Shown here: positions 52,836 to 63,022 of the stretch, piece by piece
Position numbering within the stretch: the stretch's first letter is position 1
Layout: each line of letters starts with the position of its first letter
DNA from: Halorientalis sp. IM1011
GTDB taxonomy: Archaea > Halobacteriota > Halobacteria > Halobacteriales > Haloarculaceae
Assembly: GCF_001989615.1 (NCBI RefSeq)
Contig: NZ_CP019067.1
Location: forward strand, 1,798,001 to 1,862,000
Length of the DNA stretch: 64,000 nucleotides
Direction of reading: 5' to 3'
Position numbers and translations under genes: made by a program
The notes under the pieces: generated by a model
Databases searched by the model: none
The model's input: the letters and a program-made list of their open reading frames with translations, nothing else
What the model was told of the DNA's origin: nothing

Positions 52836-55800
52836 CTAGGTCTCTGCTCTCTCACCGGTCGAGAACAACTGTTCCATGAGCCGTTGCTGTGCGAGTCTGA
52901 GGTGTCGGTTGACGGTCGGCTGTGAGACACCGAGCATCTCGGCCAGCTCCTCGCCAGTAGTCTCGCGGGGCTGTTCGAAGAAGCCCGCGAGGTAGGCGGT
53001 TTCGAGGACCTCGCGCTGGCGGTCGGTGAGCGAATCGAACAGCGTCGTGACGAGTTCCCGTCTGGTCTGGGTCGGCCGCTCGACGTGTCGTCGAGCCGTG
53101 AGTTCGACGCTTGGGTTGTCCTCGCGCAGCATCTCGACGAACTCGCGCACGTCGGTGCTCGTCGGGAGGTCGACGACGACGTCCATCCCCGTGGGGTCGG
53201 CGGTGATGGACTGGGGGCGGCCGCCGTGGCTGACGAGTTTCGCGGCGACGAGGGGGGCGGCGGTCGTCACCTCGAACAGGAGTCCGTCCGCGTCGCTGAC
53301 CAGTCGGGTGTCGGTGACGGAGACGAGGTCGGCGAGGACCGCACGGACGGTGTCGGGGTCGGTGTCGCGGGCGAGGAAGAAGACCCGGTCGTCGTCGTCG
53401 GGGACGGTGGCCAGCCCTTCGTACTCGACCCGGCAGTCGGCCTCGCGGGCGATGCGGGCCAGGAGGTCGTCGGCATCGGTGAGTGCCAGTTCCAGTTCGA
53501 GCAGCGTCTCGGCGTGGAGCGCCTGACGGGTCTTGGCGGCGGTGATCGAGTTGGCGATGGACTCGCCGAGTTCGGTGAACACGGAGCGTTCCAGGTCGCC
53601 GAACGCGTCGGGTTCGGTGGCGTAGACCGCGAGGACGCCGTAGGAGTACTCGTCGAACACGAGGGGGACGGCGACGACGGAGTGGAAGTTCTGGGCGAGC
53701 GCGGGCTTGCGCCACCCCTCCTGCTGCAGGTCGTCGACGACGTTCTCGACGACGACGGGGGATTCGGTCCGGGCGGCCTGCCAGGCCGGCTCCGGGGTGG
53801 TGGCGGAGCCGTCGGCGGAGATGGCGTCGAGGTAGCGCTCGCCGTCGCCGGCCCACTCGCGGGCGGTGACCGACTCGCCGTCGGGGCCGAGCGCCCCGAT
53901 CCATGCGAAGCCGATGGTGTCGTCGGCGACCAGTCGCTCACAGACGTCCCGTTCGATCTCCTCGTGGGTGGCCGCACCGATCAGCGACTGATCGATCGAG
54001 CGGATGATCTCGGTGATCTGCATCTGCCGGCGGAGCCGCTCGTTCCGGGCTTCGAGTTCGGCGTCGCGTTCCCGGAGCGTCGCCTGGCTCGTCAGCCGGT
54101 CGAGGGCGGCCTCGGTCGTGGCGACGAGTGTCTCGACGAGCTGGCGGGTGGTGGCGTCGATCCGCTCCGCCGGGGAGAGCGCGACGAACACGCCGTGGTC
54201 GCCGACGGGGACGAGGACCCCGTTCCGGACGCCGTCGAACAGCCCGGTATCGTCGGTCACGTCGCCGTTCTCGACGACGGTCCGGGTCTCGGTGACGAAC
54301 GTGTTCCAGATCAGCGAGTCGGCGTCGCCGACCGCCACCGACGGTGCCTCGTCCCACCGGTCGGCGAAGGCGTCCGTAACCGCCGTCGGTTCGAGCGTGT
54401 TCGTCTCGCTGTTCAACAGGTAGAGCCCGACGGCGTCGGTGTCGACCACTTCCGTCGCCACGTCGACGACCAGGTCCGCCACGTCGGCCTCCGTCTCGGT
54501 GCCGAGCAGTTGTCGGGCCGCGTCGTGGAGCGACCGGAGGGCCAGTTCGCGACGCTTCTGGTCGGTGATATCCTGGACCGACCCGTGAATCTCGACGGTC
54601 ACGCCGTCCTCGCTGATCGCTTCGCCGATGGTCCTGACCCACCGCTTTGCTCCCTCGGCGGTGACGATCCGAAGCTCCTCGTCCCAGCCCTGGCCGGTTT
54701 CGACCGCCCGCTCGACGACTCGCCGCCCTCGCTCGCGGTCGTCGGGGTGGTAGAACTCGTAGACGTCTTCGACGGTGAGGTCCCGGTCGGGCGAGACCTC
54801 GAAGATCTCGTAGAGTTGAGCGGTCCACTCGGGGGTGTAGGGTGGGTCGCCGGACAGATCGACCGACCAGCCGCCGATGGTCGCCATCCCGCCGGCGAGG
54901 GCGAGCAGGTCCTTCGCCCGTTCGAGTTCCCGCTGGCGCTCCTTGCGGTCGGTGACGTCCATGATGACGCCTTCGAGCGCCTCCGGATCGCCCGCGTCGT
55001 CGTAGACGCCGCGGCCCTGTTCCCAGAGCCACCGCCGCTCCCCGTCGGCGTCCTCGATCAGATAGGTGACCTGGAAGGGATCGCCGGTCTCGATGGCCCG
55101 CTGGACGGCGGTCCAGAGCTCCTCGTTGTCGCCGGCGATGACGTCGTCGCTCCAGCTCACTGCCCCGGACTCGATGGTTTCGGGGTCGTAACCGGTCACG
55201 GCCCGACAGCCCTCACTGACGAACTCGAAGGGCCAGTTCGGTTCGTTCGTACAGCGATACACCATCCCGGGGATGTTGCCCATCAACGTCGAGAGTTCGC
55301 GTTCGCGCTCCCGGAGTTTTCGCTCGCGTTCCTTGCGTTCGGTGATGTCTCTGCTGATCCCGATGACACCGACGATCTCGCCGTCCTCGTCGCGGTAGGG
55401 ATACTTGTTGTCGAGGAAGACGACGTCCTCCCCGTCGATACGTCGAGTCCGCTCGACGACGATGGATTCGCCGGTTTCGAGGACCTCTCGGTCGTCTTCG
55501 ATCGCGACCGTTCCCTCCTCATCGAACAGGTCCCGGTCGGTCTTGCCGATCACCTCGTCCCGGTCGAGGTCGAGGAACGCCGCGCCGGCCTCGTTGACGA
55601 ACTGATACCGCCCCTCTCGGTCTTTGATGTAGATCGGATCGAGCGTGTTCTCGACGATCGCTCGCAGTCGCCGCTCGTGTTCCCGGCGCTCGGTGATGTC
55701 GCGTGCGATCGCGACGATGCCGTCGAACTCGCCGTCGACCGTCAGCCGCGTCATTCGATACTCGACGACCGCGTAGCCGGCTTCGGGGTACGTCGCTGCG

Positions 55801-56771
55801 TACTCCCCGCAGAGCTCGTCCCGGTTCCCCTCGACGAGTTCCCGGTAGGGGTCGCCCTCGCTCTCCGCCCGGAGTCGCTCGACGAGATAACTGCGTCTCC
55901 CTTTCAGTTCCTCGGGCGTCGTCTCGTAGAAGTTGGCGAGCGCGCGGTTCGCCACCTCGATCCGGCCGTCCTCGTCGTAGATGCAGGCCGAGTCCCGCAT
56001 CGCGTTCACGAGGGTCCGGTACCGTTCGAGGTCGCGTTTCTGCTCCTCGCGTTCGGTCACGTCGCGGGCCGAGACGACCAGCGACACCACCTCGCCCTCC
56101 TCGGTGACGGGGCGAACGGTCCCCTCCCTGTAGAATCGATCACCCGACCCGTCGGTGAGATCCGCCTCGTAGCTGACGTACTCGCCGGCTGCTGCCCGTT
56201 CGATCGTCTCCCGAATCATCCGCTGAGCCTCGTCGTGGGCTTCCCACCACGGCGTCTCCCAGAAGGGGACGCCGTCGACCTCGTCCCGGTCGGCGTCGAT
56301 ATACGACATCGCCGTCTCGTTGCTGTGTCGGTGGGTCCCGTCGGGATCCAGCAGACCGACGAGCATCCCCGGGTCCTCGAAGACCGCCTCGAACCGCTTC
56401 TCGTCGTCCGATCGCGACCGCTCGTCGGCGGCCAGCGACGCGGCCAGGTCGTCGAGTTCGGTCGCGAGTTGGCCGAGCCCGTCCTCGCGGTCGGTCGGCA
56501 GGTCGAGATCGTACTCGCCGGCCTCGAGCCGCCGGACCTGCTCGATCAGTCGGCGGATGGCACCGTCGGCATCGTGCCCGACCGCGAGTCCGGCGACGAG
56601 CGGGAAAACGCCGTCACCACTCGCTGTCCCGACGAGTTCCTGGGCCCACGGTCCCCCGGTGACCGTTACCCAGACCGTGCCGACGGCCACGAGCGCGACC
56701 GCCAGCGACCAGTGCCGCCGTTCGCCCGGTCGCTCCCTCTCGACCGGTCGGCGACGGACGCGAGCGCACAC
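52836..56771 (-). CDS. Membrane-linked PAS/GAF sensor with Bat domain and HTH_10 output
   Basis: 1311 residues if started at GTG 56771. Order: a basic N-terminus, membrane helix WSLAVALVAVGTVWVTV (~21-37), a second weak hydrophobic stretch, a HAMP-like linker (~72-127, RRLEAGEYDLDLPTDREDGLGQL), five PAS domains (~130-745; tags such as VTEREE, ITERRE, ITERKER, VTDRKE, ITDQKR mark PAC ends), two GAF domains (~750-1070), a bacterio-opsin-activator domain (~1080-1225) and HTH_10 (~1245-1305, LTDRQREVLETAYLAGFFEQ and GVSQPTVNRHLRLAQQRLM). A one-component regulator. The TATA at 56796-56806 is 25-35 bases upstream of this GTG, rejecting the longer reading. It is unusual for Bat-type proteins to carry membrane/HAMP parts. 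Confidence 0.85.
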   Translation of the reverse strand: MCARVRRRPVERERPGERRHWSLAVALVAVGTVWVTVTGGPWAQELVGTASGDGVFPLVAGLAVGHDADGAIRRLIEQVRRLEAGEYDLDLPTDREDGLGQLATELDDLAASLAADERSRSDDEKRFEAVFEDPGMLVGLLDPDGTHRHSNETAMSYIDADRDEVDGVPFWETPWWEAHDEAQRMIRETIERAAAGEYVSYEADLTDGSGDRFYREGTVRPVTEEGEVVSLVVSARDVTEREEQKRDLERYRTLVNAMRDSACIYDEDGRIEVANRALANFYETTPEELKGRRSYLVERLRAESEGDPYRELVEGNRDELCGEYAATYPEAGYAVVEYRMTRLTVDGEFDGIVAIARDITERREHERRLRAIVENTLDPIYIKDREGRYQFVNEAGAAFLDLDRDEVIGKTDRDLFDEEGTVAIEDDREVLETGESIVVERTRRIDGEDVVFLDNKYPYRDEDGEIVGVIGISRDITERKERERKLRERERELSTLMGNIPGMVYRCTNEPNWPFEFVSEGCRAVTGYDPETIESGAVSWSDDVIAGDNEELWTAVQRAIETGDPFQVTYLIEDADGERRWLWEQGRGVYDDAGDPEALEGVIMDVTDRKERQRELERAKDLLALAGGMATIGGWSVDLSGDPPYTPEWTAQLYEIFEVSPDRDLTVEDVYEFYHPDDRERGRRVVERAVETGQGWDEELRIVTAEGAKRWVRTIGEAISEDGVTVEIHGSVQDITDQKRRELALRSLHDAARQLLGTETEADVADLVVDVATEVVDTDAVGLYLLNSETNTLEPTAVTDAFADRWDEAPSVAVGDADSLIWNTFVTETRTVVENGDVTDDTGLFDGVRNGVLVPVGDHGVFVALSPAERIDATTRQLVETLVATTEAALDRLTSQATLRERDAELEARNERLRRQMQITEIIRSIDQSLIGAATHEEIERDVCERLVADDTIGFAWIGALGPDGESVTAREWAGDGERYLDAISADGSATTPEPAWQAARTESPVVVENVVDDLQQEGWRKPALAQNFHSVVAVPLVFDEYSYGVLAVYATEPDAFGDLERSVFTELGESIANSITAAKTRQALHAETLLELELALTDADDLLARIAREADCRVEYEGLATVPDDDDRVFFLARDTDPDTVRAVLADLVSVTDTRLVSDADGLLFEVTTAAPLVAAKLVSHGGRPQSITADPTGMDVVVDLPTSTDVREFVEMLREDNPSVELTARRHVERPTQTRRELVTTLFDSLTDRQREVLETAYLAGFFEQPRETTGEELAEMLGVSQPTVNRHLRLAQQRLMEQLFSTGERAET

Positions 56772-56795
56772 TCGCCATTCTACGGACAGCAGGTT

Positions 56796-56806
56796 GAAAA
56801 ATATAC
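56796..56806 (-). promoter_or_regulatory. TATA box of the Bat-like regulator
   Basis: The minus strand reads GTATATTTTTC, 25-35 bases before GTG 56771. The first ATG after it is out of frame and leads only to a short stop-bounded frame, so a leaderless GTG start is the best reading. Confidence 0.55.
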
Positions 56807-57019
56807 ACGTCGCCGATTCCACTCGGCACGGAACTGACGACCGATCGCGGGCACATACCGACCGCGAGAACCCGACTCCGACCAGCGGGCCGGCTCGGCG
56901 ACGACCGGCTCCCGTCCCGTGGTCTCGGCCGCCGGGGCTATACATATAGCGTCCGGAACACGGTGTCCGTTCGGCATATGCCGAGCAGGTGGATACCGCT
57001 GACCGCTCTTGGAACGAGT

Positions 57020-57271
57020 ATGGAAGCACACGCACCGGCCAAGCCTGTCGAGCGAATCAGTACCCGCGTAATCGAATCGATCGCGGACGCACGCGGTGTC
57101 GACCCGACCGAACTCGACGTCCCGCTGTACTGGGAGATCGACCTCGAAGCGCTGGACAAACTCTGTGCCAGTGACTCCGACGACCTCGCGGTCACGTTCA
57201 CCTACGACGGGACCACGGTGACCGTACAGAGCGACGGTCACGTCGATGTCGGCGGGTCGGCCGAGGCCTGA
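57020..57271 (+). CDS. HalOD1 output-domain protein
   Basis: 83 residues from ATG 57020. RVIESIADARGVDPTELDVPLYWEIDLEALDKLC and VTFTYDGTTVTVQSDG fit the HalOD1 fold (haloarchaeal output domain 1), often the C-terminal output of haloarchaeal response regulators and also a stand-alone protein. It is first of a three-gene operon ending in a receiver-like/PAS protein. CATATG at 56975-56980 inside CGGCATATGCCG may be promoter-related. Confidence 0.82.
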   Translation: MEAHAPAKPVERISTRVIESIADARGVDPTELDVPLYWEIDLEALDKLCASDSDDLAVTFTYDGTTVTVQSDGHVDVGGSAEA

Positions 57272-57275
57272 TACC

Positions 57276-57416
57276 ATGAACGACGACCACGGACGGCGCA
57301 TCGGGGATACGTACGAGGAGTACGACATCGGCTCGACCACCGTCGCGATGATCGCAGACAGCGAGAACGAACACGCCTGGATCCAGTCGGACGTCACCAG
57401 TCCGGTCGAACCATGA
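57276..57416 (+). CDS. 46-residue conserved haloarchaeal protein (DUF7331-like)
   Basis: ATG 57276, four bases after the HalOD1 gene, gives 46 residues: MNDDHGRRIGDTYEEYDIGS, then TTVAMIADSENEHAWIQSDV and TSPVEP. The VAMI(A/Q)D-N-AWIQSD pattern is recurrent in haloarchaea next to HalOD1 genes in my memory (DUF7331). The stop overlaps the next start (ATGA). Function unknown. Confidence 0.72.
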   Translation: MNDDHGRRIGDTYEEYDIGSTTVAMIADSENEHAWIQSDVTSPVEP

Positions 57417-58216
57417 GTGGGGACCAGTACGAAGTCCCGGCGACCGGCCCGGAATGGCTCGGCCAGCTGTCAGGGACGGGCGTCGCCGACCCGATCGACC
57501 CGATCCGTGTCGTCTACGCCGACGACAACACGGAGTTCGCCACGATGGCCGAGTCGACGCTCGACGCCGAGGGGCCGTTCGAGGTCATCACGGTCGAGTC
57601 CGCCGAGGCGGCGATTGAACACCTCGACGCTGCCGACTGCATCGTCAGCAACCTGGACGGCTCCGCCCGCACCGACGACGACCTGCTCTCGGCCGTCCGG
57701 GAGCGCGACCCCACGCTCCCGTTCGTGCTCTTTACCGTCAGGTCGCTCCGCGACGTTTCCGAGCGGACGCTCGACGGGTTCTGGACCGACTACCTCGAAA
57801 AGGACGGCCTCCGGTCGCTGGAACTGCTGGGCAAGCGGATCCGCCGACTCGTCGCCCACCGGGACACCAGGGCCACGGCGCGCCGGAGTCTGGCGGCGGC
57901 CGAGGCCACACAGGAGGGCGTCGTCATCGTCGATCCCGACGGCACCGTCCGGTTCGCCAACCACGTCTACGCGATGCGACTTGGGTACGACCCAGGTGAG
58001 ATCGAGGGACGGCCGTGGCAGGACTGTTACACCGACGACGAGGCCGACCGCCTCGCCTCGACCGTCCTCCCGACGGTCGAGGACGACTGGCGCTGGACCG
58101 GCGAGTGCGTCGCACGTCGTTGGGACGGCAGCACGGTCGCCGTCCAGGCCAGTATCGTCCGTCTCGACGACGACAGCCTCGTGATCGTCCACGACGGCGA
58201 CGCGGACGCAGCCTGA
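57413..58216 (+). CDS. Receiver-like plus PAS protein with an altered phosphoacceptor
   Basis: 267 residues. A CheY-like domain (~30-140) opens IRVVYADDNTEFATMAEST; the acidic pair (DD), the Thr (LFT) and Lys (EKDG) of receivers are kept, but the phosphoacceptor position reads CIVSNLDGS with Asn where Asp is expected. A PAS domain follows (~160-260; TQEGVVIVDPDGTVRFANHVY). No kinase output domain is present. It ends the HalOD1 operon, suggesting phosphorylation-independent signalling or protein-binding (inference). Confidence 0.8.
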   Translation: MSGDQYEVPATGPEWLGQLSGTGVADPIDPIRVVYADDNTEFATMAESTLDAEGPFEVITVESAEAAIEHLDAADCIVSNLDGSARTDDDLLSAVRERDPTLPFVLFTVRSLRDVSERTLDGFWTDYLEKDGLRSLELLGKRIRRLVAHRDTRATARRSLAAAEATQEGVVIVDPDGTVRFANHVYAMRLGYDPGEIEGRPWQDCYTDDEADRLASTVLPTVEDDWRWTGECVARRWDGSTVAVQASIVRLDDDSLVIVHDGDADAA

Positions 58217-58466: not shown

Positions 58467-58922
58467 CTACCGGACCAGATCCTGCCGAAGCCGCCGCGCC
58501 TGATCGGCCATCTCCGACGCGTCGTCCACGTCGGCCAGCGCCTCGACGGCCTCCAGTGTCCGGACCGAATTGTCGAGGAAAGAGAGGATGTCGCCCGGAT
58601 AGGCGTAGAGCATGTAGTCGTCCCCCATCACGTCGACGATGGCGTCCGGGCCGAGTCCCTGCGCGCGCAACTCGAGCAGGTAGTCGACGAACTTCTCCTC
58701 GGGGTGGCCACAGTGGGGGTTCGCCTCGCAGTCACAGTCCAGAAAGTCCTCGGCGAACTCAAGCACCCGGTCGCGGGTGGCGTCGTCGAGTTTCGCCAGC
58801 CCGTCGCCCTGATAGAGGATGTCCAGCGTCGCCCCCGAGAACGCCCCCTTCGGGATGGAGGTCTCTAGCTGGGAGGCGATCTGCCGGTGGTTCTTCACGT
58901 AGATCTTGTCCGTGATGGCCAC
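58467..58922 (-). CDS. Haloarchaeal DUF5814-like protein
   Basis: 151 residues from GTG 58922. The start (M)AITDKIYVKNHRQIASQLE and SIPKGAFSGATLDILYQGDG, then a metal-like cluster DCDCEANPHCGHPEEKFVDY, agree with what I recall as DUF5814. The same module can occur at the end of a haloarchaeal DEAD/DEAH helicase; here it is stand-alone. The frame is open for 30 further codons, but family proteins begin at this point, so GTG is chosen. Function unknown. Confidence 0.78.
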   Translation of the reverse strand: MAITDKIYVKNHRQIASQLETSIPKGAFSGATLDILYQGDGLAKLDDATRDRVLEFAEDFLDCDCEANPHCGHPEEKFVDYLLELRAQGLGPDAIVDVMGDDYMLYAYPGDILSFLDNSVRTLEAVEALADVDDASEMADQARRLRQDLVR

Positions 58923-59144: not shown

Positions 59145-59918
59145 CTACGTCGTCGTCCAGCCGCCGTCGACGGTCATCACGCTGCCAGTGCAGTAGGCGG
59201 AGGCCTCGCTGGCGAGAAACAGGGCGATTCCCTTCAGATCGTCCGGGTCGCCCAGCCGACCCATGATCGTCTCCTCCTCCATCCGTTCGTGGAGGTGGTC
59301 CATACCGGAGTCCTTCCGGAAGGCACCGCCGCCGATGCCGGTGTGGACCCACCCCGGCGCGATGGCGTTGACCCGGATGCCCTCCGGGCCGAGGTCGGCG
59401 GCGGCCTGTTTCGTCAACTGGGCGACCCCGCCCTTCGAGGCGACGTAGGCCGCGACGCCGGGGAAGTCCGACGCGATCTGACTTAGGACCGACGCGGTGG
59501 TGACGATTCGGCCGCCCTCCGCCATCACCGCAGCGGCCTCCCGGATCGTGTAGAACACGCCGTCTAAGTTCACGTCCATCACCTGGTGCCACTGCTCGAT
59601 GTCGTACTCGTCGACGGTCGCACCGAGGCGGCCGATGCCGGCGTTGGCGAAGGTCACGTCGAGTCCGCCGAACTCCTCGGTGGTCTCCTCGACCATCGCG
59701 ACGACCTCCTCGTGGACGGAGACGTCCGCCGGGATCGCCAGTGTCTCGGCGTCGAGGTCGTCGGCGACCGCCTCGACACCCTCGACGTCCTTGTCGGCCA
59801 GCGCGAGCAGCGCGCCCGCGTCCGCGCAGGCCTCGGCGATGGCCTTCCCGATGCCCGAGGCCGCGCCCGTCACGAGGACGACCTCGTCGTCCAGTCGGAA
59901 TCGGTCGAGCGTGCTCAT
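59145..59918 (-). CDS. Short-chain dehydrogenase/reductase
   Basis: 257 residues from ATG 59918. Complete SDR signature: TGAASGIGKAIAEACADAG (~15-33), DVSVHEE, NAGIGRLG, Ser in TTASVLSQ and the catalytic YVASKGG (Tyr ~157, Lys ~161), then PGWVHTGIGGGAF and VDGGW at the end. It probably oxidises a hydroxyacyl-CoA or reduces a ketoacyl-CoA. Its ATG overlaps the acyl-CoA dehydrogenase stop (ATGA), so the two are co-translated. See the acyl-CoA dehydrogenase and kinase entries for the combined pathway idea. Confidence 0.9.
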   Translation of the reverse strand: MSTLDRFRLDDEVVLVTGAASGIGKAIAEACADAGALLALADKDVEGVEAVADDLDAETLAIPADVSVHEEVVAMVEETTEEFGGLDVTFANAGIGRLGATVDEYDIEQWHQVMDVNLDGVFYTIREAAAVMAEGGRIVTTASVLSQIASDFPGVAAYVASKGGVAQLTKQAAADLGPEGIRVNAIAPGWVHTGIGGGAFRKDSGMDHLHERMEEETIMGRLGDPDDLKGIALFLASEASAYCTGSVMTVDGGWTTT

Positions 59919-61174
59919 CCCTGTGGCTCTCCGAAGCGGGTGACGTACTCCAGTTCCGCCGGCTCGATCTCCTCGTCGTCGAAGGCCCCCTTGGCGATGG
60001 AGCGCATGTGTGCCTCGTCGGCCCCGTCGACGATGCGGAACGCGCGGACGTTCTCGTAGAAGTCCGCCAGCGGGAGGTCCTTGCCGATACCGTTGCCGCC
60101 ACACACCTGTACGCAGGTGTCGACGATGTCCTGGACGGTTTCGGCGGCGAAGACCTTCGACATCGAGACCTCGGTGTCTGCCTGCCCCTCCTCTTGAATC
60201 GTTCGAGCGGCGTGGCGTACCATCGTCCGCGCGGCGTGCAGGCGCATCTCGGCGTCGGCGATATCGAACCGGAGCGCCTGCTTCTCGCTGAGTTTGTCGC
60301 CGTAGGCCGAGCGCTCGTCCATGTAGGCCTTGGCGATGTCGAGCGACCGGTCGGCCATCCCCATGAAGCGCATACAGTGGGTCAGGCGGGCCTTGCCGAG
60401 GCGCTGCTGTGCGATGGCGAGGCCGCCGTCTTTTGGGCCGAGCACGTTCTCCTCGGGGACCCGAACGCCGTCGTAGACGATCTCGGCGTGGCCCATGCCG
60501 GACTCGCCCATGTGTGGGATGTCGCGGACGAACTCGACGCCGTCGGCGTCGGCGTCGACGATAAAGGCCGAGGTGCCCACGTAGGGGTGGGCGTCCTCGT
60601 TGGTCCGGGCGACGACGATCAGGAACTCCGGGCGCTCGTGTCCGAAACTCGTCCACCACTTGTGGCCGTCGATCACCCACTCGTCGCCGTCCTTCGTTGC
60701 TGTCGTCTTGATCTGTTTGGCGTCGGAGCCGGCCCCGTCCATCGGCTCGGTCATCGAGAAGCCAGAACTGATCTCGCCGTTCACCAGCGGCCGGAGGTAC
60801 TCCTCTTTCTGTTCCTCGGTGCCCGCTTCTTCGAGAATCTCCATGTTGCCCTCGTCGGGGGCGGCGACGTGCATCGCCCCCATCGCGAAGATGGAGCGGC
60901 CGGCCTGTTCGAAGACCGGTAGCAGGTCCGCAAACGCCATGCCCAGACCCCCGTACTCCTCGGGGATCTGCGGGCCGAACACGTCGCGTTCGCGGGCGAT
61001 TTCGCGAAGTTCCTCCATCAGCTCCCGCCCTTCCTCCTGTCGGTCGGCGTCGCTCCCGGCGTCGCGTTGCCCCAGTAGCTCTCGCTCCCGAGGCAGCACT
61101 TCCTCGTCGACGAACGCGCGGGTCCGCTCTGCGACCTCGCGCGCCCGTTCGGAATCCTGGTAGGTGAGATCCAT
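59915..61174 (-). CDS. Acyl-CoA dehydrogenase, ACAD10/11-like
   Basis: 419 residues. Flavin-dependent dehydrogenase: FSMTEPMDGAGSDAKQIKTTA (FAD/substrate loop), ADGVEFVRDIPHMGESGMGH, VQDIVDTCVQVCGGNGIGKDL and the end AFRIVDGADEAHMRSIAKG. The DG(A/P)DE-H pattern is typical of the ACAD10/11 branch rather than short-chain beta-oxidation enzymes (family recollection). Electrons would pass to EtfAB (17179-18941). It shares a divergent promoter region with an APH-like kinase, the partner domain to which ACAD10/11 is fused in animals. Confidence 0.88.
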   Translation of the reverse strand: MDLTYQDSERAREVAERTRAFVDEEVLPRERELLGQRDAGSDADRQEEGRELMEELREIARERDVFGPQIPEEYGGLGMAFADLLPVFEQAGRSIFAMGAMHVAAPDEGNMEILEEAGTEEQKEEYLRPLVNGEISSGFSMTEPMDGAGSDAKQIKTTATKDGDEWVIDGHKWWTSFGHERPEFLIVVARTNEDAHPYVGTSAFIVDADADGVEFVRDIPHMGESGMGHAEIVYDGVRVPEENVLGPKDGGLAIAQQRLGKARLTHCMRFMGMADRSLDIAKAYMDERSAYGDKLSEKQALRFDIADAEMRLHAARTMVRHAARTIQEEGQADTEVSMSKVFAAETVQDIVDTCVQVCGGNGIGKDLPLADFYENVRAFRIVDGADEAHMRSIAKGAFDDEEIEPAELEYVTRFGEPQG

Positions 61175-61297
61175 ACCCTACCAGTGCGAAACTCGTCGGT
61201 TAGGTGTACTGCCCCGCATGGGAGGATTATTTAACCCTCTCTCGTCTTGCCGCAGGGATGACAACTCCTTTACTACAGACCATGCAACTCGGTGGCA

Positions 61298-62356
61298 ATG
61301 CCAGACGAAGCCGATCTCGTCGACCGTGAGCGCTTGCGGGAGTTCCTCGCTGAGCGACTCGGCGAGACCGACCAGTTCGACGTCGAACGACACGATCAGG
61401 GGTTCTCGAACGAGACGCTGTTCGTCACCTGGGGCGACCGCGATCTCGTGATCCGCAGGCCGCCGCCGGGCGAGACCGCCGACACCGCCCACGACGTGCT
61501 CCGGGAGTACGAAGTCGTCCACGCCCTGCAGGACACCGACGTGCCCGTCCCGACGACCGTCGCCCAGAGCGAGGACACCGACGTGATGGGCTGTCCGTTC
61601 TACGTCATGGATCGACTGAACGGCGACGTGATGCGGTTCGTCGAACTCGACCGCTTCGGTGACGCCGACTCCCGTCGGCAGGTGGGCGAGGAGATGGTCG
61701 ACACGCTCGCGGCCATCCACACCGTCGACGTCGAAACTGTGGGCCTCGACGACTTCGGCACTCCCGAGGGGTTCGCTCAGCGCCAGGTCGACCGCTGGAC
61801 CGAGCAGTTCGAGTGGGCCTTCGAGGAGACGACGGCGGAGCGGGAAGTTCCCGAGATCCACCGCATCGGTGACTGGCTCGACGACAACGTCCCCGAATCC
61901 TCCGCCCACGCGCTGGTCCACGGCGACTACAAACTCGACAACGTCATCTTCCAGCCCGGCACCCCGCCCGAGATCGGCGGCGTCCTCGACTGGGAGATGA
62001 GCACTCTCGGGGACCCGCTCTGTGACCTGGGCTGGCTGCTCTTCTTCTGGCCCGACCCCGAGGACGACCTGACGCCGCTGATGCAGACGATGGCACCCTC
62101 CTTCACCGCTGACGAGGACTATCTGACACGGGGCGAACTCGTCGAGCGCTACGAAGAGAAAACGGGCGTCGCCGTCGAGAACCAGCGGTTCTACCGCGTG
62201 CTGGCGGTGTACAAGATGGCCGCGCTGGGCGAGATGTTCTTCGCACGGTACCTGATGGGCAACTCGGACAACACGCTCTACCAGATGATGGAGGACGGCG
62301 TGCCGACGATGGCCGACCACGCGGTCGAGATCATCGAGGGCGAGCGCCCCCTGTAG
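61298..62356 (+). CDS. APH-family phosphotransferase, ACAD-associated type
   Basis: 352 residues from ATG 61298 (GTG 61292 is an alternative). Kinase-like fold: DLVIRRPPPGETADTAHD, CPFYVMDRLNGDVM, the catalytic loop ALVHGDYKLDNVIF (Asp ~211) and the metal-binding VLDWEMSTLGDPLCDLGW. These features match the kinase domains of ACAD10/11 and bacterial LvaA, which phosphorylate 4-hydroxyacyl-CoA. A TATA-like TTTACTAC near 61269-61276 suits this start. Its stop is directly followed by the comB-like ATG. Confidence 0.87.
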   Translation: MPDEADLVDRERLREFLAERLGETDQFDVERHDQGFSNETLFVTWGDRDLVIRRPPPGETADTAHDVLREYEVVHALQDTDVPVPTTVAQSEDTDVMGCPFYVMDRLNGDVMRFVELDRFGDADSRRQVGEEMVDTLAAIHTVDVETVGLDDFGTPEGFAQRQVDRWTEQFEWAFEETTAEREVPEIHRIGDWLDDNVPESSAHALVHGDYKLDNVIFQPGTPPEIGGVLDWEMSTLGDPLCDLGWLLFFWPDPEDDLTPLMQTMAPSFTADEDYLTRGELVERYEEKTGVAVENQRFYRVLAVYKMAALGEMFFARYLMGNSDNTLYQMMEDGVPTMADHAVEIIEGERPL

Positions 62357-63022
62357 ATGTCCGTCCACACCGTCGATCGACTGGAGGACGTGCCAGAGCC
62401 CGCGCCCGAGGCGACCTTCGTCGTCGTGGACGTGATCATCTCCTCGACCAGCGTCGTTCGCCTGCTGGAGGCTGGGGCTCGCTACGTCCGCCCGTTCGCC
62501 GATGTCGACGCCGCCCGCGCGTTCAAGGCAGACACCGAGAACGCGCTCCTCGTGGGCGAGCAGGGCGGCCAGCCCGTCGACGGCTTCGACTGCTCGCCGC
62601 TGCCCTCGCTGATCGCCGAGCGGGACTTCGACGACCGCCCGGTGGGCATCCTCACCTCCAACGGGACCCGCGCGGTCCACCGGATCGGTGACGACGCCGA
62701 CGTGCTGATCGGCAGCACCGTCAACGCCGCCGCCGTCGCCGATCACCTGTGCGAGCGCGACGGGGACGTGTGGCTGGTCGCCGCCGGCCGACAGGGCGAC
62801 CGCACGCCCGAGGACTCCGCGGGCGTCGAGCTGATCCGCCGACACTACGCCGACGAAACTGCCGCGTTCACGTCCGACGACCTGGCGGCACAGGTCCGCG
62901 AGAGCGGCACCGCCGAGTGGTTGCAGGGCCTTGGCTTCGAGAACGAGGTCGAGGATCTCTGTGCGTTCGACACCAGCGACGTGGTGCCGCGACTGCGCGA
63001 TGGGCGGTTCGTCCGGGAGTGA
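62357..63022 (+). CDS. ComB-like phosphatase with altered signature
   Basis: 221 residues beginning directly after the kinase stop. The overall fold fits 2-phosphosulfolactate phosphatase (ComB): FVVVDVIISSTSVVRLLEAGARYV, GEQGGQPVDGFDCSPLPSLI, RPVGILTSNGTRAVHRIG and LVAAGRQGDRTPEDSAGVELI. Yet the usual DV(L/F)RAT Arg is Ile, and GER/FD-GNSP are changed to GEQ and FDCSPLP. Haloarchaea do not make coenzyme M by the methanogen route, so another phosphate ester is likely the substrate. The stop-start junction indicates co-expression with the kinase. Confidence 0.8.
   Translation: MSVHTVDRLEDVPEPAPEATFVVVDVIISSTSVVRLLEAGARYVRPFADVDAARAFKADTENALLVGEQGGQPVDGFDCSPLPSLIAERDFDDRPVGILTSNGTRAVHRIGDDADVLIGSTVNAAAVADHLCERDGDVWLVAAGRQGDRTPEDSAGVELIRRHYADETAAFTSDDLAAQVRESGTAEWLQGLGFENEVEDLCAFDTSDVVPRLRDGRFVRE

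Follow-up and report, generated by a model that had tools for sequence, protein, structure and literature searches.

A probable split form of the ACAD10/11 kinase and dehydrogenase pair in haloarchaea, with a ComB-fold gene adjoining the kinase

The window analysed here, a stretch of 64,000 nucleotides from Halorientalis sp. IM1011 (contig NZ_CP019067.1, positions 1,798,001 to 1,862,000), contains a compact four-gene set at positions 59145-63022, which is flanked by a DUF5814 gene and a tRNA-His gene. Three of the genes, encoding a short-chain dehydrogenase/reductase (SDR), an acyl-CoA dehydrogenase (ACAD) and an APH-type kinase, had been described in an earlier note made from the sequence alone, with the SDR and ACAD genes co-translated and the kinase gene divergent; coordinates and Pfam matches confirm all three at these positions. 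The fourth gene, absent from that first reading, occupies 62357-63022 on the plus strand and belongs to the ComB family (PF04029). The features of the set are as follows.

59145..59918, minus strand: SDR oxidoreductase of 257 aa (PF13561, E=1.1e-65), a lineage-specific accessory gene that may encode a 4-oxoacyl-CoA reductase.
59915..61174, minus strand: ACAD10/11-LvaC-type ACAD of 419 aa (PF02771, PF02770, PF00441), predicted 4-phosphoacyl-CoA phosphate eliminase.
61175..61297, no strand: divergent intergenic region of ~120 bp with both start sites, likely a shared control region.
61298..62356, plus strand: APH-type (LvaA/ACAD11-kinase-like) small-molecule kinase (PF01636, E=1.3e-47), predicted 4-hydroxyacyl-CoA kinase.
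62357..63022, plus strand: ComB-fold protein (PF04029 '2-phosphosulpholactate phosphatase', E=1.9e-43), predicted repair phosphatase or kinase regulator.

On the minus strand, the ACAD gene comes first and is followed by the SDR gene, whose start shares four nucleotides (ATGA) with the ACAD stop. The kinase gene starts on the opposite strand at the ATG at 61298, with the GTG at 61292 as an alternative start, leaving about 120 bp between the ACAD and kinase starts. The ATG of the ComB-fold gene directly follows the TAG stop of the kinase gene with zero gap. The intergenic region can be aligned over seven Halorientalis sequences and possesses a TTTAA-rich core; no clear operator emerged from this alignment.

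The N-terminal, middle and C-terminal domains of the window ACAD (PF02771, PF02770 and PF00441) all score above the Pfam cut-off, and its best relatives in the PDB are 4hr3 and ACAD11 (8v3u, 2wbi). The stretch RLGKARLTHCMR provides the equivalents of R626, R631, H634, C, M and R637 of mouse ACAD11, termed here the HCMR motif, and the usual catalytic Glu is replaced by Asp in VDGADE. Mutation of mouse ACAD11 shows that R626, H634, R637 and D753 matter, according to PMC12440821. In our alignment, the equivalent of each of these four residues is present in 43/43 haloarchaeal rows and in 16/16 bacterial and mouse rows, whereas among eight ordinary ACADs they are found in 0, 0, 2 and 1, respectively. 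In addition, a motif scan of one set of loci identified 36 ACADs with an HCMR-type motif and 8 without it.

In an IQ-TREE phylogeny of 67 rows, the HCMR-type ACADs form a single clade (100/99), which contains mouse ACAD11 and is divided into two subclades. Subclade A comprises mouse ACAD11, 4hr3 and nine plasmid-borne bacterial genes, with 48-57% identity to ACAD11. Subclade B, at 30-36% identity, comprises sequences from Thermus, Acinetobacter, Paraburkholderia, Pseudosulfitobacter and Chelatococcus together with all 43 haloarchaeal rows, which join as a single group (100/100) and include the window ACAD (34.8%). We know of no characterised enzyme among the bacterial members of subclade B (Thermus, Acinetobacter, Paraburkholderia and others). 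The sequences of LvaC, LvaA, LvaB and LvaD were not among the tree and alignment rows, and LvaC was placed through its published identity; since PMC11342911 gives 56-62% between LvaC and ACAD11/ACAD10, LvaC probably belongs to subclade A. Active-site residues and tree agree with the ACAD10/11 likeness that had been proposed for this protein: it falls in the ACAD11 clade, in the sister subclade, and not among ordinary beta-oxidation ACADs, the placement that the earlier note had named as a refuting outcome. These results support an ACAD of the ACAD10/11-LvaC kind with the same predicted type of active site.

The kinase adopts the APH fold and carries the motifs VHGDYKLDN (catalytic HGD....N) and DWEMST. 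Its best PDB relatives are 9o56 (E 5.7e-60) and the kinase domain of ACAD11 (E 1.9e-48); antibiotic kinases are far weaker matches (E 2e-4 or worse). Searched in a class sample of 391 haloarchaeal genomes, with cut-offs of E<=1e-80 for the ACAD and E<=1e-60 for the kinase, each gene is present in 202 genomes and the two genome lists are identical, with 189 genomes containing neither gene and none containing one alone. This co-inheritance (202/202) bears out the view that the kinase is the partner of the ACAD. Among the 146 genomes of the family, the ACAD was found in 77 and the kinase in 78 at E<=1e-80; compared by eye, the kinase set equals the ACAD set with the addition of G110, a genome 81% complete. 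The co-occurrence was considered as a mere sign of beta-oxidation, an explanation rejected with 3-hydroxyacyl-CoA dehydrogenase (3HCDH) as a general beta-oxidation control: it is present in 223/227 genomes, 115 of them with this ACAD and 108 without it.

The two genes also show a preferred arrangement. From 348 related stretches the best 80 were kept, all named haloarchaeal loci with a related ACAD; the kinase is located nearby in 48 of these, divergent in 42, convergent in 6 and tandem in none, an arrangement that is more than chance. A neighbour survey of 55 loci, drawn from L072-L145 (74 named loci, about every second one taken) and from 18 further loci, found recurrent acyl-CoA synthetases (11), fused 3HCDH-ECH proteins (9), MaoC hydratases and branched-chain-type ABC transporters; the window's own genome contains acyl-CoA synthetases and 3HCDH. 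That genome also harbors a second divergent ACAD-kinase pair (G000:C1:196546-199025, L031), with 60% and 62% identity to the window copies and no adjoining ComB or SDR gene, and a third HCMR-type ACAD (G000:C1:1653944-1655152, L032), which has an AMP-binding gene close by and no kinase near.

With gene order, residues, clade and co-inheritance observed directly, the core of the set is probably an archaeal counterpart, split over two genes, of the ACAD10/11 (LvaA plus LvaC) reaction pair. The kinase would move a phosphate from ATP onto a hydroxyl group of a hydroxyacyl-CoA, which most likely sits on carbon 4. In the ACAD-fold enzyme, the Asp would deprotonate C2, with transient use of FAD, while the R/H/R cluster holds the phosphate, whose expulsion would give a 2-enoyl-CoA for beta-oxidation. 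This scheme, phosphorylation and then elimination, is well supported because the ACAD residues, the clade and the identical 202-genome co-occurrence agree; the catalysis, position 4 and the chain length are predictions from sequence. The SDR may serve as an optional feeder that perhaps reduces a 4-oxoacyl-CoA. The ComB-fold protein, made together with the kinase, would most likely remove dead-end phosphorylated hydroxy acids or restrain the kinase, a role we propose with clearly less confidence than the core.

The ComB-fold protein was modelled with AlphaFold from eight sequences (mean pLDDT 87.8, pTM 0.87). The only strong structural matches of the model are ComB structures, namely 2z0j (Z 30.0), 1vr0 (Z 29.2) and 2yyv (Z 27.1), with root-mean-square deviations of 2.1-2.4 over 209-219 residues. 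Residues D25, N102, G103, N123, G144 and D153 are retained in 22/22 relatives of the protein, whereas a P-L-P-like sequence (N to P in 21/22, S to L in 20/22) stands in place of the N-S-P motif, which 19 other family members share without exception. Moreover, all NCBIfam ComB equivalog cut-offs are missed (at best 104.5 of 235 bits; 75.9 of 175.05 for TIGR00298). The fold match, the replaced N-S-P and the missed cut-offs together mark the protein as one of ComB fold whose pocket region is altered. A missing Arg in the VLRAT stretch was dropped as a telling sign, because other haloarchaeal ComBs also lack it. ComB substrates are phosphate esters of 2-hydroxy acids, as stated in PMC3087415; no structural paper on the ComB active site was found in the open literature.

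Counted at an identity of at least 50%, relatives of the ComB-fold protein are present in 19/146 family genomes and in three more genomes of the class sample, 22 in all. The gene is adjacent to the kinase gene in 17 of them, 2.9 kb away in one (G374) and unlinked in four (G048, G096, G101, G130). Spacing in the 17 ranges from -1 to 44 bases, with the kinase of G109 being a fragment at a contig end, and the link occurs across two families, Haloarculaceae and Halorutilaceae. In 4/17 genomes (G098, G102, G109, G111), the ComB-kinase pair lies without the ACAD, which is located elsewhere in the genome; of the four contigs with the pair, two are short. The ComB-linked kinases together with that of G101 form a single clade (20 rows, 100/99), and the ACADs of genomes with the ComB-kinase link likewise form one (10 rows, 99/99).

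Other lineages also place a phosphatase fold close to this type of kinase. In 18 annotated bacterial plasmid loci with such a kinase (L148, with no kinase annotated, and L150, with no annotation, were left out), a histidine phosphatase gene is located beside the kinase or one gene on in four, from Thermus (L146), two Deinococcus (L153, L205) and Streptomyces (L208), and is lacking there in 14/18; in one of these 14, from Rhodococcus (L155), a tyrosine-protein phosphatase gene lies a few genes from the kinase. In Pseudomonas citronellolis, a histidine phosphatase gene adjoins the LvaA homologue, according to PMC6692424. PMC11342911 reports that the HAD domain of ACAD10 reduces kinase output with negligible phosphatase activity, and that 4-phosphohexanoate appears in mammalian cells, likely because its CoA ester is hydrolysed. 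Partners with a phosphatase fold thus seem to be a recurring feature of this kinase across lineages, and the comparison is suggestive of a protein that disposes of dead-end phospho acids or holds the kinase back. We tentatively extend this to the haloarchaeal ComB-fold protein, for which a functional partnership with the kinase is possible, at somewhat below even probability. It might then have been recruited as a dedicated partner of the 4-hydroxyacyl-CoA kinase, hydrolysing dead-end phospho-hydroxy acids or restraining the kinase, and one of three unrelated folds in this place (ComB-like here; histidine phosphatase in Deinococcus, Streptomyces, Thermus and P. citronellolis; HAD in ACAD10), and control of the intermediate might be a general need from archaea to mammals; we hold this wider proposal with similar reserve.

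Several observations weigh against the split ACAD10/11 assignment or limit it. In 32 of the best 80 ACAD loci, no kinase lies within the DNA examined, and ACADs often outnumber kinases within a genome, by three to two in the window's own. The genomes are related, so that 202/202 does not amount to 202 independent events. The kinase tree leaves ACAD11 and the bacterial kinases unseparated because of long bacterial branches. Nevertheless, an ordinary beta-oxidation ACAD lying by accident next to an unrelated APH kinase can practically be dismissed: APH and ACAD are large families, with 19 PF00441 matches in this genome, but residues, clade and co-occurrence all reject such a coincidence. A weightier alternative keeps the two-step chemistry and changes the substrate to another hydroxyacyl-CoA, for example of a branched, terpenoid or 5-hydroxy acid. 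The haloarchaeal ACADs belong to a sister subfamily without a known characterised member, and their substrate and hydroxyl position may differ for that reason; the two ACAD subclades are well supported, identity to ACAD11 is lower in subclade B than inside subclade A, and up to five haloarchaeal paralogues occur per genome. All substrate-phosphate and base residues are unchanged, however, and in cells with ACAD10, 5- and 6-hydroxyhexanoate gave no phospho product according to PMC11342911, so we regard another substrate as unlikely, though with a real share of the probability. A full levulinate pathway of the lva type, with the SDR as the LvaD reductase of levulinyl-CoA and growth on levulinate or gamma-valerolactone, is more improbable still. 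It is favored by the SDR/ACAD overlap and by SDR genes adjoining HCMR-type ACADs in several bacterial operons; these bacterial SDRs derive from several branches of the SDR tree. In the loci read, the ACAD has a close relative of the window SDR (78-93%) beside it in Halorientalis; outside that genus this holds only for two genomes of one other genus, one being Halocatena salina, and not for the remaining genera with the ACAD-kinase-ComB set. The window SDR joins only these relatives (a branch of four rows, 100/100), apart from other ACAD-adjacent SDRs, in a tree without LvaD itself. The restricted relatives and separate branches point to repeated, lineage-specific recruitment, and the SDR, by sequence, is an optional lineage-specific feeder outside the core, for which a 4-oxoacyl-CoA reductase activity is possible. 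LvaB might be a DUF6285 protein; DUF6285 adjoins the kinase in Thermus, but its gene is found in 0/146 family genomes, so a DUF6285 partner is absent here. The genes read beside the cluster include no LvaE-type acyl-CoA synthetase; synthetases occur elsewhere in the genome. The earlier note had read the SDR as LvaD and levulinate as a possible substrate, and neither proposal is supported: the SDR is lineage-specific on its own branch, no lvaE-like synthetase is in the cluster, and the ACAD is in the sister subfamily at 35% identity to ACAD11, against 56% for LvaC (PMC11342911). Its picture of three activities side by side comes down to a two-gene ACAD-kinase core; the SDR is lineage-specific, and the ComB-family gene had gone unnamed.

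The ComB-fold gene could also be functionally unrelated to the kinase, a sulfolactate or phospholactate phosphatase that merely shares its transcript, and this explanation is doubtful rather than negligible. In G096, which has neither kinase nor ACAD, the ComB gene lies alone between top6B and gyrB, and the four unlinked genomes further favor independence; at the same locus, G098 contains kinase and ComB, so the kinase seems to have been lost and ComB kept in G096. On the other side, adjacency to the kinase persists through rearranged flanking genes and ACAD, in two families and at close spacing, and the linked kinases form one clade. Moreover, the unlinked ComB gene of G101 follows an acyl-CoA synthetase gene, and the protein falls below every NCBIfam ComB cut-off and misses the invariant N-S-P. 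A dead pseudo-enzyme is a further possibility; most invariant residues are retained. In one genus (L183, L184), the kinase-ComB pair lies between top6B and gyrB, and a relative has ComB alone at this locus.

Compared with mammalian ACAD10 and ACAD11, the haloarchaeal set shares the kinase and ACAD halves and the conserved R626/R631/H634/R637 and catalytic Asp, and mouse ACAD11 lies in the same clade. It differs in having separate divergent genes instead of one chain, an ACAD part of 35% identity that belongs to the other subclade, and a ComB-like phosphatase-fold partner, which corresponds to HAD in ACAD10 and to none in ACAD11. The Pseudomonas putida lva operon (LvaA, LvaB, LvaC, LvaD, LvaE) likewise encodes kinase and ACAD in separate genes accompanied by an SDR gene, whereas no lvaE-like gene is present here and the SDR is at most a candidate counterpart of LvaD. 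A phosphatase-family gene also adjoins the kinase in the lva cluster of P. citronellolis LA18T (PMC6692424) and in the Deinococcus and Streptomyces loci, encoding a histidine phosphatase there and the unrelated ComB fold here. With ComB itself (2-phosphosulfolactate phosphatase, PF04029), the window protein shares the whole fold (Z 27-30) and most invariant residues, and is set apart by its sub-threshold equivalog scores, its P-L-P and its genomic link to the kinase. The association of a ComB-fold protein with this kinase is a new observation, and no earlier report of an ACAD-kinase module in archaea was found in open-licence PMC papers.

With this assignment, a pair of reactions described for mammals and for some bacteria would extend to about half of the sampled haloarchaea, in which the perfect gene co-occurrence allows a direct test through halophile genetics. 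A question from the mammalian work also becomes testable, namely the reason for which this kinase comes with a phosphatase-fold domain, HAD in the case of ACAD10. If the archaeal ComB-fold protein does act in this way, the shared reason probably lies in the toxicity of 4-phospho-hydroxy acids or in their drain.

Among the near relatives are Halorientalis regularis, H. persicus and H. pallida. The DUF5814 protein adjoining the SDR gene (58467-58922, minus strand) is present in related Halorientalis loci too. A plasmid of 365 kb in Halocatena salina (L147) bears the complete four-gene set close to transposase genes, and the set may therefore be mobile. Elsewhere in the window, a very long PAS/GAF/BAT/HTH_10 regulator of up to 1399 aa, with an uncertain start, is encoded at 52836-57035 on the minus strand, and the opposite strand encodes a small PAS protein (57413-58216).

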